Assembly: GCF_003966955.1 (NCBI RefSeq)
Contig: NZ_AP019367.1
Span: forward strand, 62,001 to 126,000
DNA length: 64,000 nt
Origin: Parolsenella catena
GTDB lineage: Bacteria; Actinomycetota; Coriobacteriia; Coriobacteriales; Atopobiaceae
Direction of reading: 5' to 3'
The position numbers and the translations under genes were made by a program. The notes under the pieces were generated by a model. It ran no database searches. It was not told the DNA's origin and saw nothing but the letters and a program-made list of their open reading frames with translations. Every line of letters starts with the position of its first letter. The stretch's first letter is position 1. Positions 1,633 through 17,000 of the stretch are shown piece after piece.

Positions 1633-1746
1633 ATGAACGCCAAGAACGACACCGGAGACTGTCACAGTAGGTGCCAGCGCGAGGCCCGCCGCGTCGCGAG
1701 CCCGCTTGCAACCTTGACGTGCGGGGAGGTGCCGTCATGGGAGTAG
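1633..1746 (+). CDS. possible 37-codon upstream ORF overlapping the CorC-like start
   Basis: ATG at 1633 follows GAGGAG by 3 bases; an alternative in-frame ATG lies at 1618. The frame runs to TAG at 1744-1746, overlapping the next gene's ATG by 10 bases in a different frame. The peptide has three Cys and several basic residues and matches no family I know. It could be a leader peptide coupled to the downstream gene, or chance. Confidence 0.25.
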   Translation: MNAKNDTGDCHSRCQREARRVASPLATLTCGEVPSWE

Positions 1747-3062
1747 CGCTCAGCATCATCCTCACGCTCGTTCTCACCATCGCCAACGGCTACTTCTCGA
1801 TGTCGGAGTCCGCGCTCGTCGCGGCGAAGCGCGCCGTCCTCGAGCATGACGCAGACGAGGGCGACAAGCGCGCCAAGGTGGCGCTCGAGCTCTCCGGGGA
1901 CTCCGGCCAGTTCCTCGCTGCCATCCAGGTGGCCATCACGCTCGTGGGCTTCTTCTCGGCCATGGTGGCCTCCACCACGCTCTCCGACCCGCTTGCCGAT
2001 TGGCTCATCTCGCTGGGCGCTCCGGCTGGCATCTGCACCGCGGTCGCACCCATCGTCATCACGGTCATCGTCTCCTATGTCTCCATCGTGGCCGGCGAGC
2101 TCGTTCCCAAGCGCATCGCGCTGGCCAACGCCGAGTCCGTGGCAAAGTCGGTCTCGCCATTCCTGCGCGGCTTCTCCCGCGCGGTGGCCCCGCTCGTGTG
2201 GCTCACATCAAAGTCTGCCGACGGCCTGAGCCGACTTCTCGGCATCAAGTCCGCCGACGACCGCCAGGAGGTCTCCGAGGAGGAGATCCGCTACATGGTG
2301 ACGGACGCGGACGAGCTCTCCGACAAGGAGAAGTCGATGATTCACGAGATCTTCGACCTGGGAGACGCCATCGCCCGCGAGGTCATGGTGCCGCGCGTCG
2401 ACCTCACGGCCGTCGAGGACACCGAGACCCTGGGCAGCGTCCTTGCGCTCATGCGCCGCACGGGCTACTCGCGCATCCCGGTGTTTCACGAGGATGTCGA
2501 CCGCATCGTGGGAGTGGCCCACATCAAGGACCTCCTTGGCCCCATCGTCGACAAGGGCGAGGCGGACCGGCCCATCCGCGACTACGTGCGCGACCCGGTG
2601 TTCGTGCCCGACACAAAGGACATCATCCCGTTGCTGTCCGAGATGCAGCAGCGCCATGACCAGATGGCCATCGTCGTGGACGAGTACGGCGGCACGGCCG
2701 GCGTCATCACGATCGAGGACATCGTCGAGGAGGTCGTGGGAGAGATCGAGGACGAGTTCGACCCCGACAACAAGTACCTCACGCGCCTGTCTGAGCGCGA
2801 GTGGCTCGTTGACGGCCGCTTCTCCATCGATGATGCCCGCGACCTTGGCTGGCCCATCGAGGACTCCGAGGAGTACGAGACGGTCGCTGGCTTCATTCTC
2901 GAGCTTGCCGACTCGGTACCCAGCCCCGGCGACGCGTTCGAGGTCGAGGGCTACACGTTTCGTGTGCAGTCCATGCGTGGCCGCCGCATCGCGCTGCTGC
3001 GCGTCACCGCGCCGGCGCCGGCGCCCGAGGCCCAAGACGAGGATGCCGTCGGGCGGCGCTAG
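1737..3062 (+). CDS. CorC/HlyC-family membrane protein (CNNM transmembrane domain + CBS pair)
   Basis: 441 residues from ATG 1737, chosen for the GGGGAGGT site 7 bases upstream; the frame is open further upstream but has no ribosome site there. Residues 1-160 form the CNNM (DUF21) module: an N-terminal hydrophobic segment followed by MSESAL, then three more membrane segments ending in the conserved GELVPKRIAL. A CBS pair follows (about 215-335, with REVMVPR and VVDEYGGTAGVITIEDI), then a C-terminal CorC_HlyC domain (about 350-430). Family members are linked to Mg2+/Co2+ export or resistance. The older name 'hemolysin' is misleading. Substrate cannot be told from sequence. Confidence 0.9.
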   Translation: MGVALSIILTLVLTIANGYFSMSESALVAAKRAVLEHDADEGDKRAKVALELSGDSGQFLAAIQVAITLVGFFSAMVASTTLSDPLADWLISLGAPAGICTAVAPIVITVIVSYVSIVAGELVPKRIALANAESVAKSVSPFLRGFSRAVAPLVWLTSKSADGLSRLLGIKSADDRQEVSEEEIRYMVTDADELSDKEKSMIHEIFDLGDAIAREVMVPRVDLTAVEDTETLGSVLALMRRTGYSRIPVFHEDVDRIVGVAHIKDLLGPIVDKGEADRPIRDYVRDPVFVPDTKDIIPLLSEMQQRHDQMAIVVDEYGGTAGVITIEDIVEEVVGEIEDEFDPDNKYLTRLSEREWLVDGRFSIDDARDLGWPIEDSEEYETVAGFILELADSVPSPGDAFEVEGYTFRVQSMRGRRIALLRVTAPAPAPEAQDEDAVGRR

Positions 3063-4394: not shown

Positions 4395-5297
4395 ATGGCA
4401 AAGCAGATGATGGGCCAGCTCGTTCGCAAGAGGGTCTTCGTGCCGGGGAAGGCCTCGCGCAAGCAGGCGAAGGCGGGGGAGCAGCCGGAGCCCAAGCGCT
4501 ATGGCAAGGTCCACAACCTCGTGTTCTCCTCGGACAGCAAGCGCGTCGTGGGCATCATGGTGCGCCGTCCCGACGTGGCCGGGATGGTGAAGCAGGATGA
4601 CCGCTTCGTCCCGCTCGATTGCATCGAGTTCCACGAGGGCGGCCTGCTGTGCGCGGGCACCAAGGAGTCCTTTGACGAGGAGGCGTGCAAGCGCCTTGGC
4701 CTCGACCTCGACACCTGCATCATCTGGGAGGGCGCGGACGTCATCTGCGAGTCCGGCAAGTTCCTCGGCTACGTTATGGACGCGAGCTTTGACGTGGCGA
4801 CGGGCGAGGTGGACTGTTTCTGCGCCAACGAGGGAAACGCCGCCAGCGAGCTCGTGGGCTACTTCGAGATTCCGTGTGCGTGGGTCGTTCGCTATGACAA
4901 GGGCCGCATGATCGTGCGAGACCAGGCGGCCGAGCTCGAGCTCTCCGGTGGCCTGGCCGCCAAGGCGGGCGAGGGCTACGCGCATGCCAAGGACGGCGCC
5001 AAGAAGGCAACGGCCAAGTTCGACGACGCCGCGTCCAAGGCCGTCGACAAGGGCGCCCACGGCCTTGGACGCATGATCGGCAAGGCCAAGAGCAAGGTCC
5101 GGGAGGCCAAGGCGAGCTATGACGAGGCAGCCGGCGCCGACCCCGCACAGACCTCGCCCGGCGAAAGCAAGGTGGCGTCCTCCTCGGCGTCCGCCGATAA
5201 TGGAGCAAAGGTCGCGAAGGCGGTTGGCGAGCAGCTCGGCAAGACAAAGGGCATGTTCTCCGGCTTCATTCGCGAGTTCAAGGAGGCCAGCAAGTAG
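4395..5297 (+). CDS. PRC-barrel domain protein with helical tail
   Basis: 300 residues. Two PRC-barrel-like halves appear. One is at about 35-90 (GKVHNLVFSSDSKRVVGIMV, then DRFVPLDCIEF). The other is at about 115-165 (GKFLGYVMDASFDVATGEV, then YFEIPCAWVVRYDKGRMIV). The C-terminal third is Ala/Lys/Asp-rich and likely coiled coil, similar in composition to the YtxH protein before it. PRC barrels bind proteins or RNA and sense cofactors, but nothing here shows which. The ribosome site before ATG 4395 is weak (GAGATGG). Function unknown. Confidence 0.7.
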   Translation: MAKQMMGQLVRKRVFVPGKASRKQAKAGEQPEPKRYGKVHNLVFSSDSKRVVGIMVRRPDVAGMVKQDDRFVPLDCIEFHEGGLLCAGTKESFDEEACKRLGLDLDTCIIWEGADVICESGKFLGYVMDASFDVATGEVDCFCANEGNAASELVGYFEIPCAWVVRYDKGRMIVRDQAAELELSGGLAAKAGEGYAHAKDGAKKATAKFDDAASKAVDKGAHGLGRMIGKAKSKVREAKASYDEAAGADPAQTSPGESKVASSSASADNGAKVAKAVGEQLGKTKGMFSGFIREFKEASK

Positions 5298-7552: not shown

Positions 7553-9394
7553 ATGATCTATCTGTCCCAGCTGCTGGGCAACCCCGTCCTCGACGCCAAT
7601 GGCGAGAGGATTGGCGTCGTCAACGACCTTGGCATCGCCACGCGCGAGGTCTTCCCCCGCGTCACGTCGCTTGCCTTCCAGGGCCCCGGCAAGACGCCGT
7701 TCATGATCTCGTGGCGCAAGTACGTGGAGACGTTCGACGAGACCGAGGTTCGCCTCGCCGTCCCCGCAACAGACATCCGCTTCTCCTACCTGCAGCCCGA
7801 CGAGGTGCTCATCGCGCGAGACCTGCTCAACAAGCAGATCGTGGACACCCGTGGTATGCGCGTCGTGCGCGTGAACGACCTCAAGCTCTCCGACACCAGC
7901 TCGAGCCAGCTGCGCCTCCTCGGCGCCGAGGTGGGTGTGCGCGGCATCCTGCGCGCGCTGTCCCCGGCATTCGAGCGCCTCGTCATACGTGCCTCCCACG
8001 CGATGGGCCATGACATCCCCGAGAAGATCATCGCGTGGAACTACATGGACCTCATCGACCGCGACCTCTCGAGCGTGAAGCTGTCCGTCTCGCACCAGAC
8101 GCTCGACGACCTGCACCCGGCAGACGTTGCCGACATCATCGAGCAGCTTGACCCGCGCCTGCGTGGCCAGGTGTTCGCCCAGCTCGACGACGCGCAGGCT
8201 GCCGAGGCCATGGCCGAGCTCGATGATGACGAGATGGCCGCCAAGATCGTGGGCGACATGGAGGACGCCGACGCCTCGCGCATGCTGTCTGAGATGGACC
8301 CGGACGACGCCGCCGAGCTCGTGGGCGAGCTTGACTACGAGCGTGCCGAGAAGCTCCTGCGCCTCATGGGCATCAACGAGCAGCGCGCCATCCGCCAGTT
8401 GCTTGGCTACAAGGACGACACGGCGGGCCGCATCATGACCTCGGAGTTCGTCTCCGTTCCGCGCGAGACCACCGTCGCCGAGGTTGCCGAGCGCATGCGC
8501 GCCCTGCCCGATGACTTCGAGCCGGTCAACTACGTCTACCTCACGGATGCCGACGAGCGCCTCTGCGGCGTCGTACCCGTGCGCCGTCTGTTCGTCTCAG
8601 AGCCGGACGTGTCCCTCTCGGATCTCGCCAGCGATGATGACGTCCTCACGGCCAAGCCCGACGACGACCAGGAGGACGTCGCCCAAGACATTGCCAAGTA
8701 CAACCTGCTTGCCATGCCCGTCGTGGACGAGAAGAGCGGCAAGGTCCTCGGCATCGTGACGGTCGATGACGCACTCGACGTCATGGAGGAGGAGCACGAG
8801 GAGGACCTGCGCATCGCTGGCGGTACGGCCAACTCCTCTGACTCCGAGACCAACTCCGGCGACCTCATGCGCTTCCTGCGCAACGAGATGTGGTTCTTCT
8901 TCTGGATGGCCGCCGCGGTGGTGCTCGCCATCGCCCTCGGCCCGGACACGGGCGTGGCCGTTGCGTTCGCGGCGCCCGTCGCTCTCGTCGCCGCCGTCGA
9001 GATGGTGCGCTTCGTGACGAACTTCTTCCTCGAGTACGACGAGGACGACGAGGACGCCCCGTCCGTTCCCGGCTTTGCGGTGAAGAGCATTGCGATGGGC
9101 GTGCTGTGGGCCGCGATCGTCATGCTCGTGTGCGCCGCTGCCAATGGCGTGGTGAGTGGTGCCACGGAGGGGCTCGGCGCCATCGTGTTCCAGCTGCTCC
9201 GCGGCTTCGAGGCTAGCGTGGCTGCCGTGGTCATCACGTTCGTGCTTGCGCCCATTTACCTGCTGGTCCTGCGCCGTCGCGACGAGCAGGGTGCCGACAC
9301 GAGCGGTCTTGCGCTGCAGGTCGTGGCGCTTGTGCTCGCCGTCGTCGTCTTTGTGGGCGTGGCGCTCGCCCTCGTCACCCCGGTGCTTGGGTAG
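7553..9394 (+). CDS. MgtE-N/CBS-domain membrane protein, probable magnesium-uptake partner or regulator
   Basis: 613 residues from ATG 7553 with AAAGGAGC 6 bases upstream. Residues 1-90 resemble a PRC barrel (GERIGVVNDLGI). About 180-285 is the MgtE_N superhelical domain with the 'LHPADVADIIEQLD' start and repeated acidic helices. About 290-415 is a CBS pair (AGRIMTSEFVSVP to DALDVMEEEHEED). Residues 440-613 hold about four or five hydrophobic helices. These do not look like the classic MgtE pore domain, whose conserved Asp-containing helices I do not see. In MgtE the cytosolic domains sense Mg2+ and gate the channel. Here they may gate or inform the NRAMP-type carrier that starts 3 bases downstream (inference). 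Confidence 0.8.
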   Translation: MIYLSQLLGNPVLDANGERIGVVNDLGIATREVFPRVTSLAFQGPGKTPFMISWRKYVETFDETEVRLAVPATDIRFSYLQPDEVLIARDLLNKQIVDTRGMRVVRVNDLKLSDTSSSQLRLLGAEVGVRGILRALSPAFERLVIRASHAMGHDIPEKIIAWNYMDLIDRDLSSVKLSVSHQTLDDLHPADVADIIEQLDPRLRGQVFAQLDDAQAAEAMAELDDDEMAAKIVGDMEDADASRMLSEMDPDDAAELVGELDYERAEKLLRLMGINEQRAIRQLLGYKDDTAGRIMTSEFVSVPRETTVAEVAERMRALPDDFEPVNYVYLTDADERLCGVVPVRRLFVSEPDVSLSDLASDDDVLTAKPDDDQEDVAQDIAKYNLLAMPVVDEKSGKVLGIVTVDDALDVMEEEHEEDLRIAGGTANSSDSETNSGDLMRFLRNEMWFFFWMAAAVVLAIALGPDTGVAVAFAAPVALVAAVEMVRFVTNFFLEYDEDDEDAPSVPGFAVKSIAMGVLWAAIVMLVCAAANGVVSGATEGLGAIVFQLLRGFEASVAAVVITFVLAPIYLLVLRRRDEQGADTSGLALQVVALVLAVVVFVGVALALVTPVLG

Positions 9395-9397
9395 GCG

Positions 9398-10708
9398 GTG
9401 CCCGTGAGGAGCTTCAAGGTCTGGAAGAATCTCCGCGGCGTGCGCTCCGTCGGCGCTGACAGCTCCGCGCCCGTCCGTCGCCGCGAGCCGCTGCGTGTGG
9501 CCGCCGTGCTGGGTGCCCTCGGTCCCGGCCTGCTCACGGCGCTCGCCGGCATGGACGCCGGTGGCGTGGCGACGTTCTCGAATGCCGGTGCCGTCTTTGG
9601 CTACGAGCAGCTGTGGTCAATCCCGGTGATGTGCTTTCTGCTCATCGTGGTGCAGGAGACGGCCGCCCGCATGGGCTGCGTCACGGGCAAGGGCTTTGCG
9701 GCCCTCATCCGCGAGCAGTACGGCGTGCGCCTCAGCGCGTTCGCGATGCTCGCGCTCATCGTCTCAAACACGGCCGTGACGCTCTCCGAGTTCGCGGGCA
9801 TCGCCTCGGGCATGCAGCTGTTTGGCGTGCCCACGATCATCAGCGTGCCCATCGCGGCCATTGCGGTGTGGCTGCTGGGCATGAGCGGCTCGTACAAGCG
9901 CATCGAGAAGATTCTGCTCGCCATCGGCTGCGTGTTCGTGACCTACGTGGCCGCGAGCTTCATGGTGGGTCCGGACTGGGGAGAGGTCGTCAAGTCCACG
10001 TTCATGCCCCAGGTCAACGTGACGCCCGCCTACGTGAGCCTGCTCGTGGCAAACATCGGCACCACCATCTCTCCGTACATGATCTTCATGGGTCAGGGCA
10101 ACGTCGTGGAGAAGAACTGCGACGCCGACGACCTTCCCTATCAGCGTATCGACACCGTGAGCGGCGCCGTCGTGGCCCAGCTCATCGCGTTCTTCATCGT
10201 GGTGTGCACGGGCAGCGTGCTGCACCCGGCCGGCATCGCCGTGAACTCGGCCGAGGACGCCGCCCGCGCCCTTGCGCCGCTTGCCGGCCCGTACGCCGAG
10301 GTGCTGTTCGGCGTTGGCCTCGTGGGCGCGAGCTTCCTGGCGGCCTGCGTGCTGCCGGGCATCACGTCGAGCGCCGTGTGCGAGGCCTTTGGCTGGGAGC
10401 GAGGTCAAGACAAGAGCTGGAGCGAGGCGCCTGCCTATCGAGGCATGGTTACTGCCATCACGCTGCTCTCTGCCGTCGTGGTGCTGCTGCCCGGCGTGGA
10501 CCTGTTCGGCATCATGATGGTGGCGCAGGTGATCAACGGCGTGCTGCTGCCGGTGCTTCTCGTGTTCATGGTCCGCATCGCAGATGACCGTCACGTCATG
10601 GGCGCCTACGCCAACGGCCGCGCGTGGACGGCGCTCACGTGGCTCATCGTCGTGGTCGTTGCGATCCTCACCGTCGTGATGTTCGTGCTGCAGGCGCTCG
10701 GCTACTAG
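9398..10708 (+). CDS. NRAMP-related divalent metal transporter, magnesium-type (DAGG in place of DPGN)
   Basis: 436 residues, about 11 membrane helices, starting with GTG 9398 just 3 bases after the previous stop, so the pair is almost surely co-translated. A second GTG lies at 9404. Helix 1 carries D53-A-G-G56 where Mn2+/Fe2+ NRAMP carriers have DPGN. Helix 6 reads GTTISPY (about 221-227) and lacks the Met that selects transition metals. Both changes fit the NRMT clade, one of which (from Eggerthella lenta) is known to carry Mg2+ and Mn2+ without proton coupling. The MgtE-N partner supports Mg2+. Family is firm; Mg2+ specificity is inferred. Confidence 0.85.
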   Translation: MPVRSFKVWKNLRGVRSVGADSSAPVRRREPLRVAAVLGALGPGLLTALAGMDAGGVATFSNAGAVFGYEQLWSIPVMCFLLIVVQETAARMGCVTGKGFAALIREQYGVRLSAFAMLALIVSNTAVTLSEFAGIASGMQLFGVPTIISVPIAAIAVWLLGMSGSYKRIEKILLAIGCVFVTYVAASFMVGPDWGEVVKSTFMPQVNVTPAYVSLLVANIGTTISPYMIFMGQGNVVEKNCDADDLPYQRIDTVSGAVVAQLIAFFIVVCTGSVLHPAGIAVNSAEDAARALAPLAGPYAEVLFGVGLVGASFLAACVLPGITSSAVCEAFGWERGQDKSWSEAPAYRGMVTAITLLSAVVVLLPGVDLFGIMMVAQVINGVLLPVLLVFMVRIADDRHVMGAYANGRAWTALTWLIVVVVAILTVVMFVLQALGY

Positions 10709-10902: not shown

Positions 10903-11658
10903 CTACAGCACGTTGATGCCGCTATCTCGCAGCGCTGCGATGGCACCGGGGCGGTCCTCGTCGCAGATGGCGATGTCAAAGTCGTCGAGCGAGGCATAGC
11001 GATACGTGCCCGAGCGCCCGAGCTTGTCGGTCCCGCACAGCAGCACGCTCTGGCTCGCGCGCTCGAGCGCCGCCTGCTTGGCCGGGACGTCGTCGAGGTC
11101 GAGCGTGAGCACGTCCCCGTCCTGCGCGTCCACGCCAACGGCGCCCATGAACGCGGCGTCGAACCGGTAGGCGTCGAGCGCGTGCGCCGCGAGCGGCCCG
11201 ATGAACCCGTTGTACTCCACGCTGTACGTGCCGCCTGGGCAGAAGGCCCGCGCCGAGCCGCCGCGGCAGACCGCGCGCATGACGTCAACCGAGTTCGAGA
11301 CAACCGTGAGCGACATCCTGCTTGCGGCGATCATCTCGCCAAGCAGGATGTTTATGGACGAGAAATCAAGGTAGATGGTCTGCCTCGGACGAATGAGCTC
11401 GAGTGCCTTCGCGGCGATGGCCTGCTTCTCGGGGCGCAGCGTGTCCACGCGCTCGGCGATGTTGCGGTTGACCTCGCCCTCTATGCGCGTGGCGCCGCCG
11501 TACACCTTGCGGCATCGTCCCTGCGCCACGAGCTGGCGCAGGTCCTTGCGGATGCAGTCGCTCGTGACGGCGAACCTCTTGGAGAGCTCGGCGACGGTGA
11601 CGCGCCCCTCGACGTCGATGATGTGGGCGATTTCTTCCTGTCTCTCGCTCGAGTACAT
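10903..11658 (-). CDS. DeoR/GlpR-family transcriptional regulator (first copy)
   Basis: 251 residues from ATG 11658, with GGGAGG 5 bases upstream. The N-terminal winged helix shows the family pattern (RQEEIAHIIDVEGRVTVAELSKRFAVTSDCIRKDLRQL, about 6-43). The rest is the DeoRC sugar-phosphate sensor with IYLDFSS and late Asp residues. It is divergent from the fructose-6-phosphate-aldolase-like gene, the usual position for its repressor. It probably responds to a phosphorylated sugar taken up by the PTS encoded nearby (inference). Confidence 0.9.
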   Translation of the reverse strand: MYSSERQEEIAHIIDVEGRVTVAELSKRFAVTSDCIRKDLRQLVAQGRCRKVYGGATRIEGEVNRNIAERVDTLRPEKQAIAAKALELIRPRQTIYLDFSSINILLGEMIAASRMSLTVVSNSVDVMRAVCRGGSARAFCPGGTYSVEYNGFIGPLAAHALDAYRFDAAFMGAVGVDAQDGDVLTLDLDDVPAKQAALERASQSVLLCGTDKLGRSGTYRYASLDDFDIAICDEDRPGAIAALRDSGINVL

Positions 11659-11686
11659 GTCTGCCTCCCACAACACTAAGCCTGAT

Positions 11687-11724
11687 TTACTACAGAGTAA
11701 GATAAAACAAGTCAAACTACTTGT
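11687..11724. promoter_or_regulatory. candidate operators between deoR and the aldolase gene
   Basis: ACAAGT-N6-ACTTGT (11707-11724) is a perfect inverted repeat. TTACT-N4-AGTAA (11687-11700) is a second. On the minus strand TTGACT, then 17 bases, then TAGTAA gives a plausible promoter for the deoR gene overlapping both. This suits autoregulation plus control of the divergent aldolase. Confidence 0.45.
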
Positions 11725-11826
11725 AGAACGATAATCTCCGCGCTATCTTATGGCCGAGAAGTAACTGCCGCATGCGTGCGGCCGCCGTGCGAGACAGATC
11801 GTGCGGCCCAATCGAAGGGATGCGCC

Positions 11827-12495
11827 ATGGAAGTCATCATCGATACCGCCGATATCAACGAGATCAAGGTGCTCGACTCCCTGCTCAACGTCGACGGCGT
11901 CACCACGAACCCCACGATCATCACGCGTAGCGGCAAGACCCCCGAGGAGGCCCTCAAGGAGATCATCGACTACCTCAAGCCCGAGCAGAAGCTGTTCGTG
12001 CAGGTCGTTGCCACGGACTATGACGGCATCATGGCCGAGGCCCGCAAGATCAATGCCCTCCGTCCCGAGAATACCTACGCCAAGATCCCCGTGTCTCCGG
12101 CCGGCCTCAAGGCCTGCAAGGACGCCAAGGCCGAGGGCCTGAACGTGCTCTCCACCTCCGTGTACTCCTCCGAGCAGGGCTTCCTCGCCGCCGTCAACGG
12201 CGCCGACTACATCGCCCCGTACACCAACCGCATGTCCAACTACGGTGACGGTGTCCAGCAGGTCAAGGACCTCATCGAGATGCTGCGCGTCCAGGGCCTG
12301 AGCTCCAAGGTCATGGCCGCCTCGCTGCATAACACCAACCAGGTGCACGAGCTCATCAAGGCCGGCATCCAGGCCATCACGTTCCCGCCTGCGGTACTGC
12401 ACGCCATGATCGACCACCCCGGCACCAAGATCGCCGTTGACGAGTTCAGCGAGTCCTGGGAGAAGGCCTACGGTCGCAACGAGCTCGGCCTGTAG
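11827..12495 (+). CDS. fsa: fructose-6-phosphate aldolase-like (TalC/FSA) enzyme
   Basis: 222 residues, the short transaldolase-like family. ATG 11827 has GAAGGGA 6 bases upstream. Schiff-base Lys86 lies in AKIPVS; NPTII (about 28-32), the 'TSVYSSEQG' strand and 'APYTNRM' are family landmarks. FSA enzymes reversibly cleave fructose 6-phosphate to dihydroxyacetone and glyceraldehyde 3-phosphate and accept related sugar phosphates; some close relatives are true transaldolases. With the PTS and second deoC downstream, it is likely part of one catabolic route. Exact substrate unknown. Confidence 0.85.
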   Translation: MEVIIDTADINEIKVLDSLLNVDGVTTNPTIITRSGKTPEEALKEIIDYLKPEQKLFVQVVATDYDGIMAEARKINALRPENTYAKIPVSPAGLKACKDAKAEGLNVLSTSVYSSEQGFLAAVNGADYIAPYTNRMSNYGDGVQQVKDLIEMLRVQGLSSKVMAASLHNTNQVHELIKAGIQAITFPPAVLHAMIDHPGTKIAVDEFSESWEKAYGRNELGL

Positions 12496-12520
12496 GGGCT
12501 AGGACACATATAGGCGTTCA

Positions 12521-12559
12521 GCGTCCCAAAGGTGTCAGTCGCCTTTGGGACGCTTCTTT
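12521..12559. terminator. bidirectional terminator between aldolase and second deoR
   Basis: A perfect 12-bp stem (12521-12532 with 12542-12553) with a 9-nt loop, followed on the plus strand by TTCTTT. Confidence 0.85.
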
Positions 12560-12570
12560 GGGATGCCGCG

Positions 12571-13365
12571 TTAGCAGAGCGCGGGCGTGCCGGTTGCCGC
12601 GATGGCACGCAGAACGTTTGAGTCGGTGGAGTCCGTGATGACCGCCGTGAAGTCAGAGATCGACGCCCAGCGATACCCACTGTGGATGCTGAACTTCTCG
12701 TGATCGGCGAGAAGGAAGCGATACGACGCGTTCTTGAGCACCTGGTCGTCCACCTTGCCGTCATCCGTCGTGGTGGCGAGCACCGCACTCGTGCCCAGGT
12801 CGACGCCGCACGTGCCGAGGAACGCCTTGGAGAACAGCAACGGCTCGAGAAGGCTGATGCATGCGGGCCCGGTGAAGCCGTTGTTGAGCACGTTGAGATA
12901 GCCGCCGGTGGCGAGCGCCGTGATCTTGGGGTTGCCGGCGAGGCGTTGGAGCACATCAATCATGTTCGTCGTGACGATGAGGCGTTTATCGCCCGCCGCG
13001 ATGAGGTCTGCGAGGTAGGCGTTCGTGCGCGAGACGCCAAGGAAGATGGCGTCTCCGTCGTTGATCTCGAGCCAGGCGCGCGCGGCAACCGCGCGGCGGC
13101 CGGCATCGGCCTTGGCCTCGTCGTCTGCGAGGATGCTCTCGAGCGTGGGGGAGGGTGCAGGGTCAGGAGCGGCCGCGCTCTCGGGCTCGAGGCGCAGCGC
13201 GCCGCCGTACTCTCGCTTGATCTTGCCCTCGAGCTGCAGGACCTTGAGGTCCTTGCGGATGCTGTCGACGCTCACGCCAAAGCGCTTGGAAAGGTCGTCC
13301 ACGGTGGCAAAGCCCGTGGCGTTCACGATCTCCAGAATCTCTTTCCTGCGCTCTTTGGGAAACAA
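12571..13365 (-). CDS. DeoR/GlpR-family transcriptional regulator (second copy)
   Basis: 264 residues, starting at TTG 13365 with GGAG about 8 bases upstream. The N-terminal helix-turn-helix is clear (RRKEILEIVNATGFATVDD to DSIRKDLKVLQ). An Ala/Pro-rich linker (about 62-80) precedes the sensor domain, where IFLGVSRTN replaces the more usual Gly/Ser phosphate loop. It is divergent from the PTS genes and probably represses them. It is a paralogue of the regulator at 10903, so the two DeoR proteins frame one catabolic unit. Confidence 0.9.
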   Translation of the reverse strand: MFPKERRKEILEIVNATGFATVDDLSKRFGVSVDSIRKDLKVLQLEGKIKREYGGALRLEPESAAAPDPAPSPTLESILADDEAKADAGRRAVAARAWLEINDGDAIFLGVSRTNAYLADLIAAGDKRLIVTTNMIDVLQRLAGNPKITALATGGYLNVLNNGFTGPACISLLEPLLFSKAFLGTCGVDLGTSAVLATTTDDGKVDDQVLKNASYRFLLADHEKFSIHSGYRWASISDFTAVITDSTDSNVLRAIAATGTPALC

Positions 13366-13519
13366 CGTGCTGCTCCGACTCGAAGACTGATGGGTCGCGA
13401 CACCTCTGCGTGAAGGTCGGGCATGCCTGCTTGGGGGGGCAGCCAGTCGCGTTTACCACATGTTATAGGAAGCATCCAGATTGTAATCGGTGAGTGCCGT
13501 TCACCGCCAAAAATCGACC

Positions 13520-13596
13520 GCAAACAGGAAGCAGAACCGGGCAAACAGGAAAAATCAGGAAATCAAGCTGCAATCTGCGAAGCCAATCTGTACAAT
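13520..13596 (+). promoter_or_regulatory. PTS operon promoter region with paired direct repeats
   Basis: GCAAACAGGAA occurs at 13520-13530 and 13541-13551, 21 bp apart (two helical turns), a good geometry for a dimeric repressor. CTGTACAAT at 13588-13596 is a likely -10 box for the PTS transcript. The second DeoR protein, encoded divergently, is the likely binder. Confidence 0.45.
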
Positions 13597-13641
13597 GCAT
13601 GAAGGTTTTATGTGTAGTTGTTTACAGGAGGGGGTTTGTCC

Positions 13642-14097
13642 ATGGCCGGTATGGAGGACATGCTCAAGCGTCAGAACGTCCAGATCGTCGAGAAGGTCAA
13701 CGACTGGGAGGAGTCCGTCCACGTCGCGGTTCAGCCGCTCGTTGACCAGGGCTACGTCAAGTCCGACTACATCGACGGCATCATTTCCAACGCCAAGGAG
13801 TTTGGCCCCTACTTCGTCATCTGCCCCGACCTGGCGCTGCTCCACGCTCGTCCCGAGCAGGGCGTCATCAAGCGTCAGCTCGCCGTCACCGTGCTCCGTG
13901 AGCCGGTGCGCTTCAAGGAGGAGGGCCCTGACGTCCGTCTTCTCGTGACCCTGGCCGCCGAGGACGCCGACTCCCACATTGACGTCATGCGCAAGCTGGC
14001 CGTTATGTTCAGTGATCCCGCCAACATCACCAAGATTGCCGAGGCTAAGGACGCAGACGAGGTCTATGCCCTCTTCTGCGCCCCCACCGAGGAGTAA
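13642..14097 (+). CDS. PTS sugar transporter subunit IIA (ascorbate/fructose-type EIIA)
   Basis: 151 residues from ATG 13642 with CAGGAGGGGG 7 bases upstream. The phosphohistidine is His68 in ALLHARPEQGV, the EIIA type-2 active site. It passes phosphate from HPr to the IIB protein encoded two genes later. It heads the order IIA-IIC-IIB. The closest named relatives by motif are UlaC-like proteins, but the ascorbate catabolic genes are not here. Confidence 0.9.
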   Translation: MAGMEDMLKRQNVQIVEKVNDWEESVHVAVQPLVDQGYVKSDYIDGIISNAKEFGPYFVICPDLALLHARPEQGVIKRQLAVTVLREPVRFKEEGPDVRLLVTLAAEDADSHIDVMRKLAVMFSDPANITKIAEAKDADEVYALFCAPTEE

Positions 14098-14195
14098 ATC
14101 AAGGCGACTTTTGGCGATCGCGCCGCGCAAGACGTCCGCAGCCGTCGAGCGCGGCAGGTAAAAATGCAGTACTACGTTAGGAAGGAAGGGAAGAA

Positions 14196-15611
14196 ATGGC
14201 AGTCATCGACTTTATCGTCAACATTCTGTCTACGCCGGCTATCCTCGTCGGCCTTCTCGCTCTCCTCGGCCTCGCGCTTCAGAAGAAGCCGATCGAGGAC
14301 ATTGTCATGGGCACCATCAAGACCATCGTGGGCTTCCTGGTTCTCACCGCCGGCTCCAGCTACCTGCAGTCCGGCTCCCTGCTCGCCTTCGGCGAGATCT
14401 TCAACTACGCCTTCTCCATGCAGGGCGTCGTGCCGAACAACGAGGCCGTCGTGTCCATGGCTCTGACCGACTTCGGTCAGGCCTCCGCACTCATCATGTG
14501 CGTGGGCATGCTCCTCAACATCGTGCTTGCTCGCTTCTCGCGCATGCACTACATCTTCCTCACCGGTCACCACACGCTCTACATGGCGTGCATGCTCGCC
14601 GTCGTGCTGAGCATCGGCGGCCTCGAGGGCTGGCAGCTCATCGTCGCTGGTGGCTGCGTCCTCGCCTTCATCATGGTGCTCTCCCCGGCCTACTGCCAGC
14701 CGACCTTCAAGAAGGTCACCGGCACCGACGGCGTTGCCCTCGGCCACTTCGGCGGCATCGGCTACGCCATCGCCGGTCAGGTGGGCAAGCTCTTCAAGGG
14801 TGGTAAGTCCACTGAGGACATCAACTTCCCGAAGCGTCTCATCTTCCTGCGTGACACCACGGTCTCCATCTCCATCACGATGATCGTCTTCTTCGTCGTC
14901 GTGACCGGCGTTGCCGTTGCCCGTGGCATCCTCTCCGCTGACCCGACGCAGTTCACCTACCTCAACGAGCTGCTCAACGTCGGCACCGAGACCCAGACCA
15001 ACTGGGTCGTCTGGGCCTTCACCTCTGGCTGCGCCTTCGCTGGCGGCGTCTACATCGTCCTCTCCGGCGTCCGCCTGATCGTCGGCGAGATCGTCCCCGC
15101 CTTCAAGGGCATCGCCGAGAAGCTCGTCCCCGGCGCCATCCCCGCCATCGACTGCCCGGTTGCGTACCCCTACGCTCCTAACGCGGTCATCATCGGCTTC
15201 CTGGTCTCCTTCGCCGCTGGCGTTGTCGGCCTGTTCATCCTGTCTGCCATCGACGCCAACCTCGCTCCCGTTGCCCTGATTCTCCCCGGCGTTGTCCCGC
15301 ACTTCTTCTGCGGCGCCACCGCTGGTGTCTTCGGCAACGCCGAGGGCGGCGTGAAGGGCTGCGTCGCGGGCGCCTTCGTCCACGGCCTGCTCATCACCTT
15401 CCTGCCGGCCATCTGCATGCCGGTCTTCACGAGCCTCGGCTTCACCTCCGCCACGTTCTCCGACGCCGACTTCTCCTGGCTCGGCATCCTGTTCGGCAAC
15501 CTGGCTCAGGCCCTGCCCGGCTCCCCGCTCCTCATCATCTGCATCCTCTTCTTCGTCGCGCCGATCGTGTACAACTTCGTCGCCCCGAAGCACGAGGTCG
15601 CTGCTGAGTAG
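14196..15611 (+). CDS. PTS sugar transporter subunit IIC (UlaA/SgaT-type permease)
   Basis: 471 residues, about 11 membrane segments, with GGAAGGGAAG just upstream of ATG 14196. Typical UlaA-family landmarks are present: the N-terminal 'ILSTPAILVGLLALLGL', 'HYIFLTGHHTLYMA', and the C-terminal 'PGVVPHFFCGATAGVFGN' with its Gly-rich run. It forms the sugar channel in the inner membrane. The family is named for L-ascorbate, but members differ in substrate. The flanking aldolases argue for a pentose, deoxy-sugar or ketose instead (inference). Confidence 0.9.
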   Translation: MAVIDFIVNILSTPAILVGLLALLGLALQKKPIEDIVMGTIKTIVGFLVLTAGSSYLQSGSLLAFGEIFNYAFSMQGVVPNNEAVVSMALTDFGQASALIMCVGMLLNIVLARFSRMHYIFLTGHHTLYMACMLAVVLSIGGLEGWQLIVAGGCVLAFIMVLSPAYCQPTFKKVTGTDGVALGHFGGIGYAIAGQVGKLFKGGKSTEDINFPKRLIFLRDTTVSISITMIVFFVVVTGVAVARGILSADPTQFTYLNELLNVGTETQTNWVVWAFTSGCAFAGGVYIVLSGVRLIVGEIVPAFKGIAEKLVPGAIPAIDCPVAYPYAPNAVIIGFLVSFAAGVVGLFILSAIDANLAPVALILPGVVPHFFCGATAGVFGNAEGGVKGCVAGAFVHGLLITFLPAICMPVFTSLGFTSATFSDADFSWLGILFGNLAQALPGSPLLIICILFFVAPIVYNFVAPKHEVAAE

Positions 15612-15690
15612 CATCTGCTGCGGAAGGGCTAGCTGGCAACCCGCCCTGTAAGCGAATGCCAGTCTGACCCGAATTTGTGTCACCTTACCG

Positions 15691-15726
15691 ATTGCGGGGC
15701 TGGGGCTGCGGCTCTGGCCCCGCAAT
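15691..15726 (+). other. strong hairpin between the IIC and IIB genes
   Basis: ATTGCGGGGC (15691-15700) pairs perfectly with GCCCCGCAAT (15717-15726); there is no T-run. In a 206-base gap inside an operon it may be a processing site, mRNA stabiliser or partial terminator that lowers IIB relative to IIC. Confidence 0.6.
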
Positions 15727-15817
15727 TGGGTACCATCGTTGTTAGTGCGCGGTATGTTCCGCGCGTAAAGCGTGCGGCGTGCCCAGGGGGGAACGCCGCG
15801 ATACGAAAAGAGGAACC

Positions 15818-16102
15818 ATGGAAGTCCACAAGATTATGTGCGCCTGCGGCTCTGGCCTCGGCTCCAGCCTTATGGTCGAGATGAACATCAACGACGTCCT
15901 CAAGAAGATGGGCCGTACCGACATCCAGGTCAGCCACTCCACCACCTCCGACGTCAAGCCCGGCGCTGCCGACCTGTTCGTCGTTGGCTGCGACCTCGCT
16001 GACTTCATCAAGGGTGTCCCTGAGGACTCCAAGGTCATCCTCAACAACATCGTTGACAAGAACGAGCTTCAGGAGAAGCTCACCGAGGCCTTCGCCCGCT
16101 AA
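15818..16102 (+). CDS. PTS sugar transporter subunit IIB (lactose/ascorbate-type EIIB)
   Basis: 94 residues from ATG 15818 with AAAAGAGGA 5 bases upstream. The phosphocysteine loop [10 protein letters not shown] lies at residues 8-17; Cys10 is the expected phosphate carrier. It takes phosphate from IIA and gives it to the sugar in IIC. The 200-base gap before it is unusual for a PTS operon. Confidence 0.9.
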
Positions 16103-16194
16103 GCCTTGTCTGTCGATCGCCTCGGTGATCGCACGCGCGAAGATATTCGCATTCGTCGCAGTCTCGCTGCGGCACTCTTTCCAGAGAAACGTGG

Positions 16195-16246
16195 CCCGGC
16201 ATCGTTCGTACGGTACAAACGTGCGGCGATGCCGGGCTTCTTCTTT
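16195..16246 (+). terminator. terminator after the IIB gene
   Basis: CCCGGCATCG (16195-16204) pairs perfectly with CGATGCCGGG (16227-16236), followed by CTTCTTCTTT. The second deoC therefore probably has its own promoter or depends on read-through. Confidence 0.8.
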
Positions 16247-16355
16247 AGCTTCCTGGTGTGTCGTATGCTTTGGCTGTCAAATGTATGGCCAATGCAAACT
16301 TATCGATTCGCAGATTCGACGTGCCGTTTGGGGCACGCAGGAAAAGGAGATGCAC

Positions 16356-17000
16356 ATGGAAATCAATCGCATGATCGACCACACGCTGCTCAAGCCCAAC
16401 GCCACGCGCGCCCAGATTGAGAAGCTCTGCGACGAGGCGCTCGAGTATCACTTTGCCTCCGTTTGCGTGAACACCTGCTGGGTGCCCCTCTGTGCCGAGA
16501 AGCTCGCCGGCAGCGACGTCAACACCTGCTGCGTCGTGGGCTTCCCCCTGGGTGCCATGCTTCCGGCTGCCATCGCCGAGGAGACCCGCATGGCCGTCGA
16601 GGCCGGTGCCGACGAGGTCGACATGGTCATCAACGTGGGATGGCTCAAGGACGGCGACTATGATGCCGTTCGTAACCAGATTGCTGGCGTCGTCAAGGCT
16701 GCCAACGGCAAGTGCGTGAAGGTCATCATCGAGGCCTGCCTGCTCACCGACGAGGAGAAGGTTAAGGCTTGCGAGCTCTCCGTCGAGGCCGGTGCAACGT
16801 TCGTGAAGACGAGCACGGGCTTCTCGACCGGCGGCGCCACGGTGGCAGACGTGGCCCTCATGCGCAAGACCGTGGGCGACAAGTGCAAGGTCAAGGCTGC
16901 CGGCGGCATCCACACCGCCGAGGAGGCCAAGGCCATGGTCGAGGCTGGCGCAGACCGCCTTGGCTGCAGCGCTGGCGTTCAGATCATGAGCGGCTGCTAG
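16356..17000 (+). CDS. deoC: deoxyribose-phosphate aldolase (second copy)
   Basis: 214 residues from ATG 16356; AAGGAG sits 6 bases upstream, and the alternative ATG 16350 is too close to it. Catalytic residues are intact: Asp89 (DEVDMVIN), Schiff-base Lys151 (VKTSTG) and Lys180 (KAAGG). It is about 28 residues shorter than the copy at 557 and belongs to a different DeoC subgroup by its N-terminus (MIDHTLLKP). It is unusually Cys-rich in the first third. Downstream of the PTS genes, it fits cleavage of an imported, phosphorylated sugar. Confidence 0.93.

Follow-up and report, generated by a model that had tools for sequence, protein, structure and literature searches.

The window, a 64,000-nucleotide stretch of Parolsenella catena DNA (GCF_003966955.1, NZ_AP019367.1, positions 62,001 to 126,000, forward strand), to which all coordinates refer, holds two closely spaced genes on the plus strand. 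The first (7553 to 9394), which encodes a putative Mg2+ sensor of 613 amino acids, begins with an ATG at 7553 that is preceded by the ribosome site AGGAGC and ends with a TAG stop codon at 9392 to 9394. The second encodes an NRAMP protein of 436 amino acids that runs from a GTG at 9398 to a stop at 10708. Translation could equally begin at an in-frame GTG at 9404; both GTGs are kept in a relative of the same genus, and the residues downstream of them are not conserved. The intergenic gap consists of the three bases GCG between 9394 and 9398, which agrees with the spacing given in the earlier note. A natural fusion of sensor and carrier, suggested by a 1048-amino-acid open frame in two relatives, was rejected because a TAG lies between both genes.

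Pfam matches the PRC, MgtE_N and two CBS domains in the sensor, as had been proposed from the sequence, and leaves the C-terminal membrane part unmatched. The protein is predicted to comprise one or more PRC domains, MgtE_N, a CBS pair, a plug helix and a decayed MgtE pore, all encoded on the plus strand. The N-terminal PRC-barrel domain (PF05239) is located at 7553 to 7717, and a relative in which two PRC stretches are detected points to a second such stretch. The MgtE_N domain (PF03448, E 5.4e-24) spans 8111 to 8419 and contains E218, D251 and E255 as equivalents of Mg2+ ligands, as mapped to Thermus thermophilus MgtE. The two CBS domains at 8423 to 8788, identified by PF00571 and by MgtE cytosolic domains in the PDB, with an approximate boundary for the first, contain the ligand equivalents E374 and D406 and have N384 in place of D226 in the same mapping. 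The plug helix (8774 to 8836) carries D409, E414, E417 and D418, which correspond to D250, E255, E258 and D259 of the T. thermophilus protein. The five-helix membrane domain that follows (8849 to 9376) is predicted to have the MgtE fold with the pore residues lost, as judged from AlphaFold, PDB matches, hhalign and column counts. Between helices 2 and 3, at about 9030 to 9075 on the plus strand, lies an acidic loop (EYDEDDEDAPS) that shows good conservation across the window's family and is cytosolic by MgtE topology; it could be an extra Mg2+ site.

The NRAMP protein at 9398 to 10708 (plus strand; PF01566, E 2.6e-90) groups by sequence and by fold with the NRMTs and not with the Mn2+/Fe2+ NRAMPs. 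Its best PDB match is EleNRMT (7qia, E 2.9e-147), whereas the Mn2+ transporters (MntH) reach 8e-30, and EleNRMT also ranks first against the predicted fold, with a Z of 56.7 and 2.0 Å over 397 residues. In NRMTs, Gly, Thr and Ala replace N54, A232 and M235 of EcoDMT (PMC8806188). The ion site of the window protein has the Gly and Thr as in NRMT, and Ser225 occupies the classical helix-6 Met position, where NRMT has Ala. The helix-1 motif (9554 to 9565, plus strand) reads DAGG (D53-A-G-G56) in place of the classical DPGN, and the helix-6 motif (10058 to 10078, plus strand) reads GTTISPY where the usual NRMT sequence is GTTIAPW. The NRMT-like DAGG and missing helix-6 Met named in the earlier note are thus both present (DAGG, TTISP, with EleNRMT as the best match), and from sequence and model the protein is a predicted Mg2+ carrier of the NRMT type. 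The Ser and Tyr of helix 6 covary, with SPY found in 7 and APW in 32 aligned carriers; Tyr at this position occurs also in the plant Al3+ transporter SiNRAT (PMC10115441). The genome encodes a second, distant NRAMP (contig C1, 630686 to 631741), 25% identical, which probably belongs to a different substrate group.

No match to PF01769, the MgtE pore family, was obtained by Pfam in the sensor, nor in the whole genome. The five-helix partner of a sister class, L042, matches this family above cut-off (2.6e-9), and other five-helix partners match it weakly at the same place. Profile comparison with hhalign aligned the L042 group with true MgtE bundles at a probability of 97% (E 2.8e-11), and the window-type bundle with the L042 group at 71% (E 3.7e-5). 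The direct comparison of the window type with MgtE is collinear over 167 columns, with a weak E of 0.095 that counts against the relationship; control comparisons of NRAMP pieces with partner bundles gave 0.17 to 0.55 in short alignments. An AlphaFold model of the sensor plug and bundle, built with 62 sequences, has a pLDDT of 91 and a pTM of 0.83. A structure search with this model (VIA-align) returned MgtE entries at all of ranks 1 to 5, with Z of 11.5 to 12.4, the alignment spanning plug and bundle in full (model 1 to 205 on chain 244 to 449). Unrelated helical bundles follow from Z 10 down, and for helical bundles the tool warns of Z values close to those reached here (about 12), which also counts against the assignment. 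Foldseek with the same model found nothing at E ≤ 0.001 and placed MgtE at ranks 1 to 4 with E of 0.04 to 0.4. The MgtE link of the window-type bundle is therefore drawn through intermediate sequences and structure, and not through a direct profile match; on this basis the membrane domain very probably descends from MgtE. The earlier note had called this domain atypical, which does not hold in the sense of an unrelated domain: by sequence and predicted structure it is a decayed MgtE pore. It is also not the normal MgtE pore that the same note named as evidence against its proposal, given the unmatched PF01769 and the loss of the pore Asp and GGN...Q.

The residues lost and kept were compared by aligning 62 partner sequences to 16 true MgtEs, and the cytosolic ligands were compared in 30 relatives from the order. 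Residue D432 of T. thermophilus MgtE, the pore Asp of the Mg1 site (PMC5882242), is conserved as Asp in 16/16 true MgtEs; the partners have Asp there in 0/62 cases, and the position is never acidic in them and is mostly Met, Val or Leu. In the sensor it is taken by Leu593 (9329 to 9331). The window type has also lost the GGN...Q of helix 2 and the helix-5 DPA motif, with the Pro after it. The plug acids at the E255, E258 and D259 positions, in contrast, do not vary among the 62 partners, and the equivalents of D91, E216 and D247 are invariant in all 30 order relatives, in which D250 is matched by D or E and D95 mostly by Glu. E216 and E255 are ligands in the MgtE structure. The D226 equivalent is mostly Asn and that of E59 is variable among the order relatives, and this counts against a sensor that gates the NRMT. 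The sites D91/D247, D95, D226/D250, E59, E258 and D259 act in the closure of MgtE, which occurs at about 4 mM cytosolic Mg2+ (PMC5882242). In soluble partners, which have no bundle, the plug acids are mostly absent. The sensor has thus kept the MgtE_N domain, the CBS pair, the plug acids and, by prediction, the five-helix transmembrane fold of the channel; since the elements linking Mg2+ sensing to the bundle are retained and those for ion passage are not, selection has kept only the former.

The sensor is present, mostly at full length, in 34 of 40 relatives, and in all 29 relatives' loci that were fetched the NRMT follows next to it on the same strand. An identical neighbor in the same orientation in 29/29 loci places the pair beyond chance, and the conservation of the gene pair, which the earlier note had put forward as a check, is borne out. 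In the six relatives that have no sensor, some with incomplete genomes, the NRMT is absent too: five give no match, and one gives a distant NRAMP (E 6.5e-49). NRMT genes also mostly adjoin sensor genes in the phylum sample, and across phyla this adjacency is kept while the other neighbors vary. Among 80 named loci from Nitrospirota, Deltaproteobacteria, Acidobacteria, Omnitrophota, Firmicutes and others, a partner lies beside the NRMT in 67, and is soluble in all 67; eight have none, and five are at contig edges. Six phylum genomes have a small PRC gene alone beside the NRMT and a sensor of five-helix length elsewhere in the genome. In two NRMT genomes no partner of the sensor type was found, which counts against the sensor gating the NRMT. 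Small PRC-only genes also stand beside NRMTs at nine loci of other classes.

The partners occur in several architectures: some are soluble, some have a single helix and some have five. In most phyla the partner is soluble and all membrane helices are gone, and one subgroup has lost four of the five helices and still keeps the pair; the carriers of this single-helix subgroup are nearly identical to EleNRMT. In a tree built on the N and CBS region, which does not fix how MgtE, the soluble and the five-helix sensors are rooted, the five-helix sensors form one group (94/86) separate from true MgtE (99/93) and from the soluble sensors (96/91). The five-helix group includes the single-helix sensors as a nested branch, with strong support, and so, on this sequence tree, the single-helix form most likely arose through loss.

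The genome contains one MgtE_N protein, which is the sensor, and one MgtA-type ATPase, and CorA was not found in it. With no CorA and no MgtE pore beside these two, the sensor-NRMT pair stands out as a good candidate for a principal Mg2+ route of this genome. M-box riboswitches lie upstream of the operon at seven five-helix-type loci, all from sister families, and also upstream of several soluble-type loci. Neither an M-box nor another riboswitch was found upstream of the window operon, and the scanned loci of its family contain no M-box. Upstream of the sensor lie a CNNM/CorC gene (PF01595, CBS, CorC_HlyC; 1671 to 3062, plus strand) and, just before the sensor region, a gene for a 300-amino-acid PRC-barrel protein (4395 to 5297, plus strand). 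This gene order (CNNM, PRC protein, polysaccharide deacetylase, sensor) recurs at one locus of the same genus and one of another family of the order, and was not seen in five further genera of the family to which the window belongs. Downstream, 10903 to 17000 contains sugar-utilization genes, with two DeoR regulators, a fructose-6-phosphate aldolase/transaldolase, a PTS EIIA, an EIIC-GAT and a DeoC/LacD-type aldolase.

These observations suggest a two-gene Mg2+ uptake system in which a pore-dead MgtE acts as a cytosolic Mg2+ sensor and as the gate of a passive NRMT, a reading to which we give a probability of about 0.6. The first gene would encode a descendant of MgtE that has kept the N domain, CBS pair, plug and five-helix bundle and lost the pore, and the second an NRMT, an outgroup member of SLC11 that would act as a passive carrier of hydrated Mg2+. 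Millimolar cytosolic Mg2+ would bridge the N domain, the CBS domains and the plug helix, as in MgtE, and the compacted sensor, with its membrane bundle, would hold the adjacent NRMT shut. On a drop in Mg2+ the sensor would relax, and the carrier would run on the membrane potential. A shut-off would be needed because transport by EleNRMT is passive and uncoupled (PMC10115441). The mechanism presupposes that the sensor dimerizes, that its dead bundle contacts the NRMT and that it inhibits at high Mg2+, all of which we infer. In the two-component sensor and carrier of the earlier note, the pairing is what is well supported, through adjacency, co-absence, the M-boxes of sister families and the conserved ligands, and physical gating is the conjectural part.

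A joint AlphaFold model of both proteins, in which the TAG was read as Gln as a computing device, has a pLDDT of 78 and a pTM of 0.53 and comes with no pair-error or interface score; a fold search with it returned no MgtE among the matches listed, the carrier filling the list. Two results of Shin et al. 2014 (PMC4072509) count against gating: NRMTs transported Mg2+ with no partner, and co-expression of the soluble Acidobacterium capsulatum partner did not improve rescue. An inhibitor, though, would not improve rescue. A broader form of the reading is evenly balanced in our judgment. In it, a pore-less Mg2+ channel has become the gating subunit, embedded in the membrane, of a carrier from the unrelated SLC11 family, related lineages show other degrees of reduction (five helices, one helix, soluble), and regulation by a pseudo-channel has been transferred from one transporter fold to another.

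The sensor could instead be an independent Mg2+-dependent membrane protein, a scaffold or regulator acting via its PRC and CBS domains, that adjoins the NRMT through a shared Mg2+ regulon only. The decayed-MgtE gene lies on another contig than the NRMT in the six genomes with unlinked sensors, NRMT functions in Bacillus subtilis with no sensor (PMC4072509), and the window itself has the CNNM/CorC gene upstream; yet adjacency persists across phyla as other neighbors change, the relatives without a sensor also lack the NRMT, and both genes still occur in one genome in the unlinked cases, so that this account is unlikely. Strict pairing and co-absence would also fit a sensor that activates or stabilizes the carrier, as an obligatory subunit or assembly factor, and not a shut-off at high Mg2+. 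This is quite improbable given that NRMTs transport Mg2+ in vivo without the partner, according to the 2014 study (PMC4072509), that EleNRMT was purified and characterized on its own (PMC8806188), and that the retained ligands are those that close MgtE (PMC5882242).

It is also conceivable that the membrane domain still conducts, as a re-tooled MgtE that uses acids of helix 2, and that the two genes are merely co-regulated uptake routes. The fold is MgtE-like, and the helix-2 GGN positions are often acidic in the partners (D 25 and E 12, and D 26 and E 9, of 57), with one acid, a Glu, in the window protein. These acids are not invariant, Arg standing there in 11/57 and Ser and Gly also occurring, whereas the Mg2+-binding pore Asp is gone in 62/62 and the GGN and the Gln four residues later are lost; moreover, the pair is kept though a subgroup has lost four of five helices and most phyla have lost all. 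Continued conduction is accordingly very improbable.

A partner that has kept the gate and lost the pore makes it directly testable how cells that carry passive NRMTs avoid over-filling with Mg2+. The pair suggests that a broken channel has been re-used as the off-switch of another transporter. If gating by the sensor is true, the pair would clearly exemplify the reduction of a channel to the role of regulator for another family of transporters, and would suggest that the NRMT structures solved to date may be missing a natural partner.

The pairing of an NRMT with an MgtE cytoplasmic-domain protein and the idea of feedback are prior knowledge. According to Shin et al. 2014 (PMC4072509), most members of the NrmT group adjoin a gene homologous to the cytoplasmic domain of MgtE, and feedback regulation by this neighbor was speculated on. 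That paper alone was found on the pair in a search of the open-access literature, subscription papers and supplementary figures lying outside it, and no description of an MgtE-pore-derived membrane domain in the partner was found in open-access papers or in the available part of that study. The MgtE-pore identity of this domain is provisionally the new part. The window pair resembles the NrmT pairs of that study (PMC4072509) in the two-gene arrangement, the proposed feedback role and the M-box on some members; the partner there is a homologue of the MgtE N-terminal cytoplasmic domain, to which the window sensor adds a plug helix and a bundle of five helices that derives from the pore of MgtE.

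The carrier is like EleNRMT of Eggerthella lenta (PMC8806188; 7qia, 7qji) in family, in DAGG and in the absent helix-6 Met, and differs in helix 6, which is APW in EleNRMT and SPY in the window carrier. The deposited EleNRMT structures are without a sensor, and two of its very close relatives carry a one-helix partner gene. CNNM/CorC proteins share with the sensor a membrane domain with a CBS pair and a tie to Mg2+ homeostasis, but have a different membrane family (PF01595) and a CorC_HlyC tail and are encoded by a separate gene. MgtE itself (T. thermophilus; 2zy9, 5x9h, 4u9l) has the same order of N, CBS, CBS, plug and five helices as the sensor, together with most cytosolic Mg2+ ligands and the overall fold of plug and bundle. 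Unlike MgtE, the sensor has lost Asp432, GGN...Q and the helix-5 DPA with the next Pro, has gained N-terminal PRC domains and, in the cases checked, occurs in genomes that encode an NRMT.
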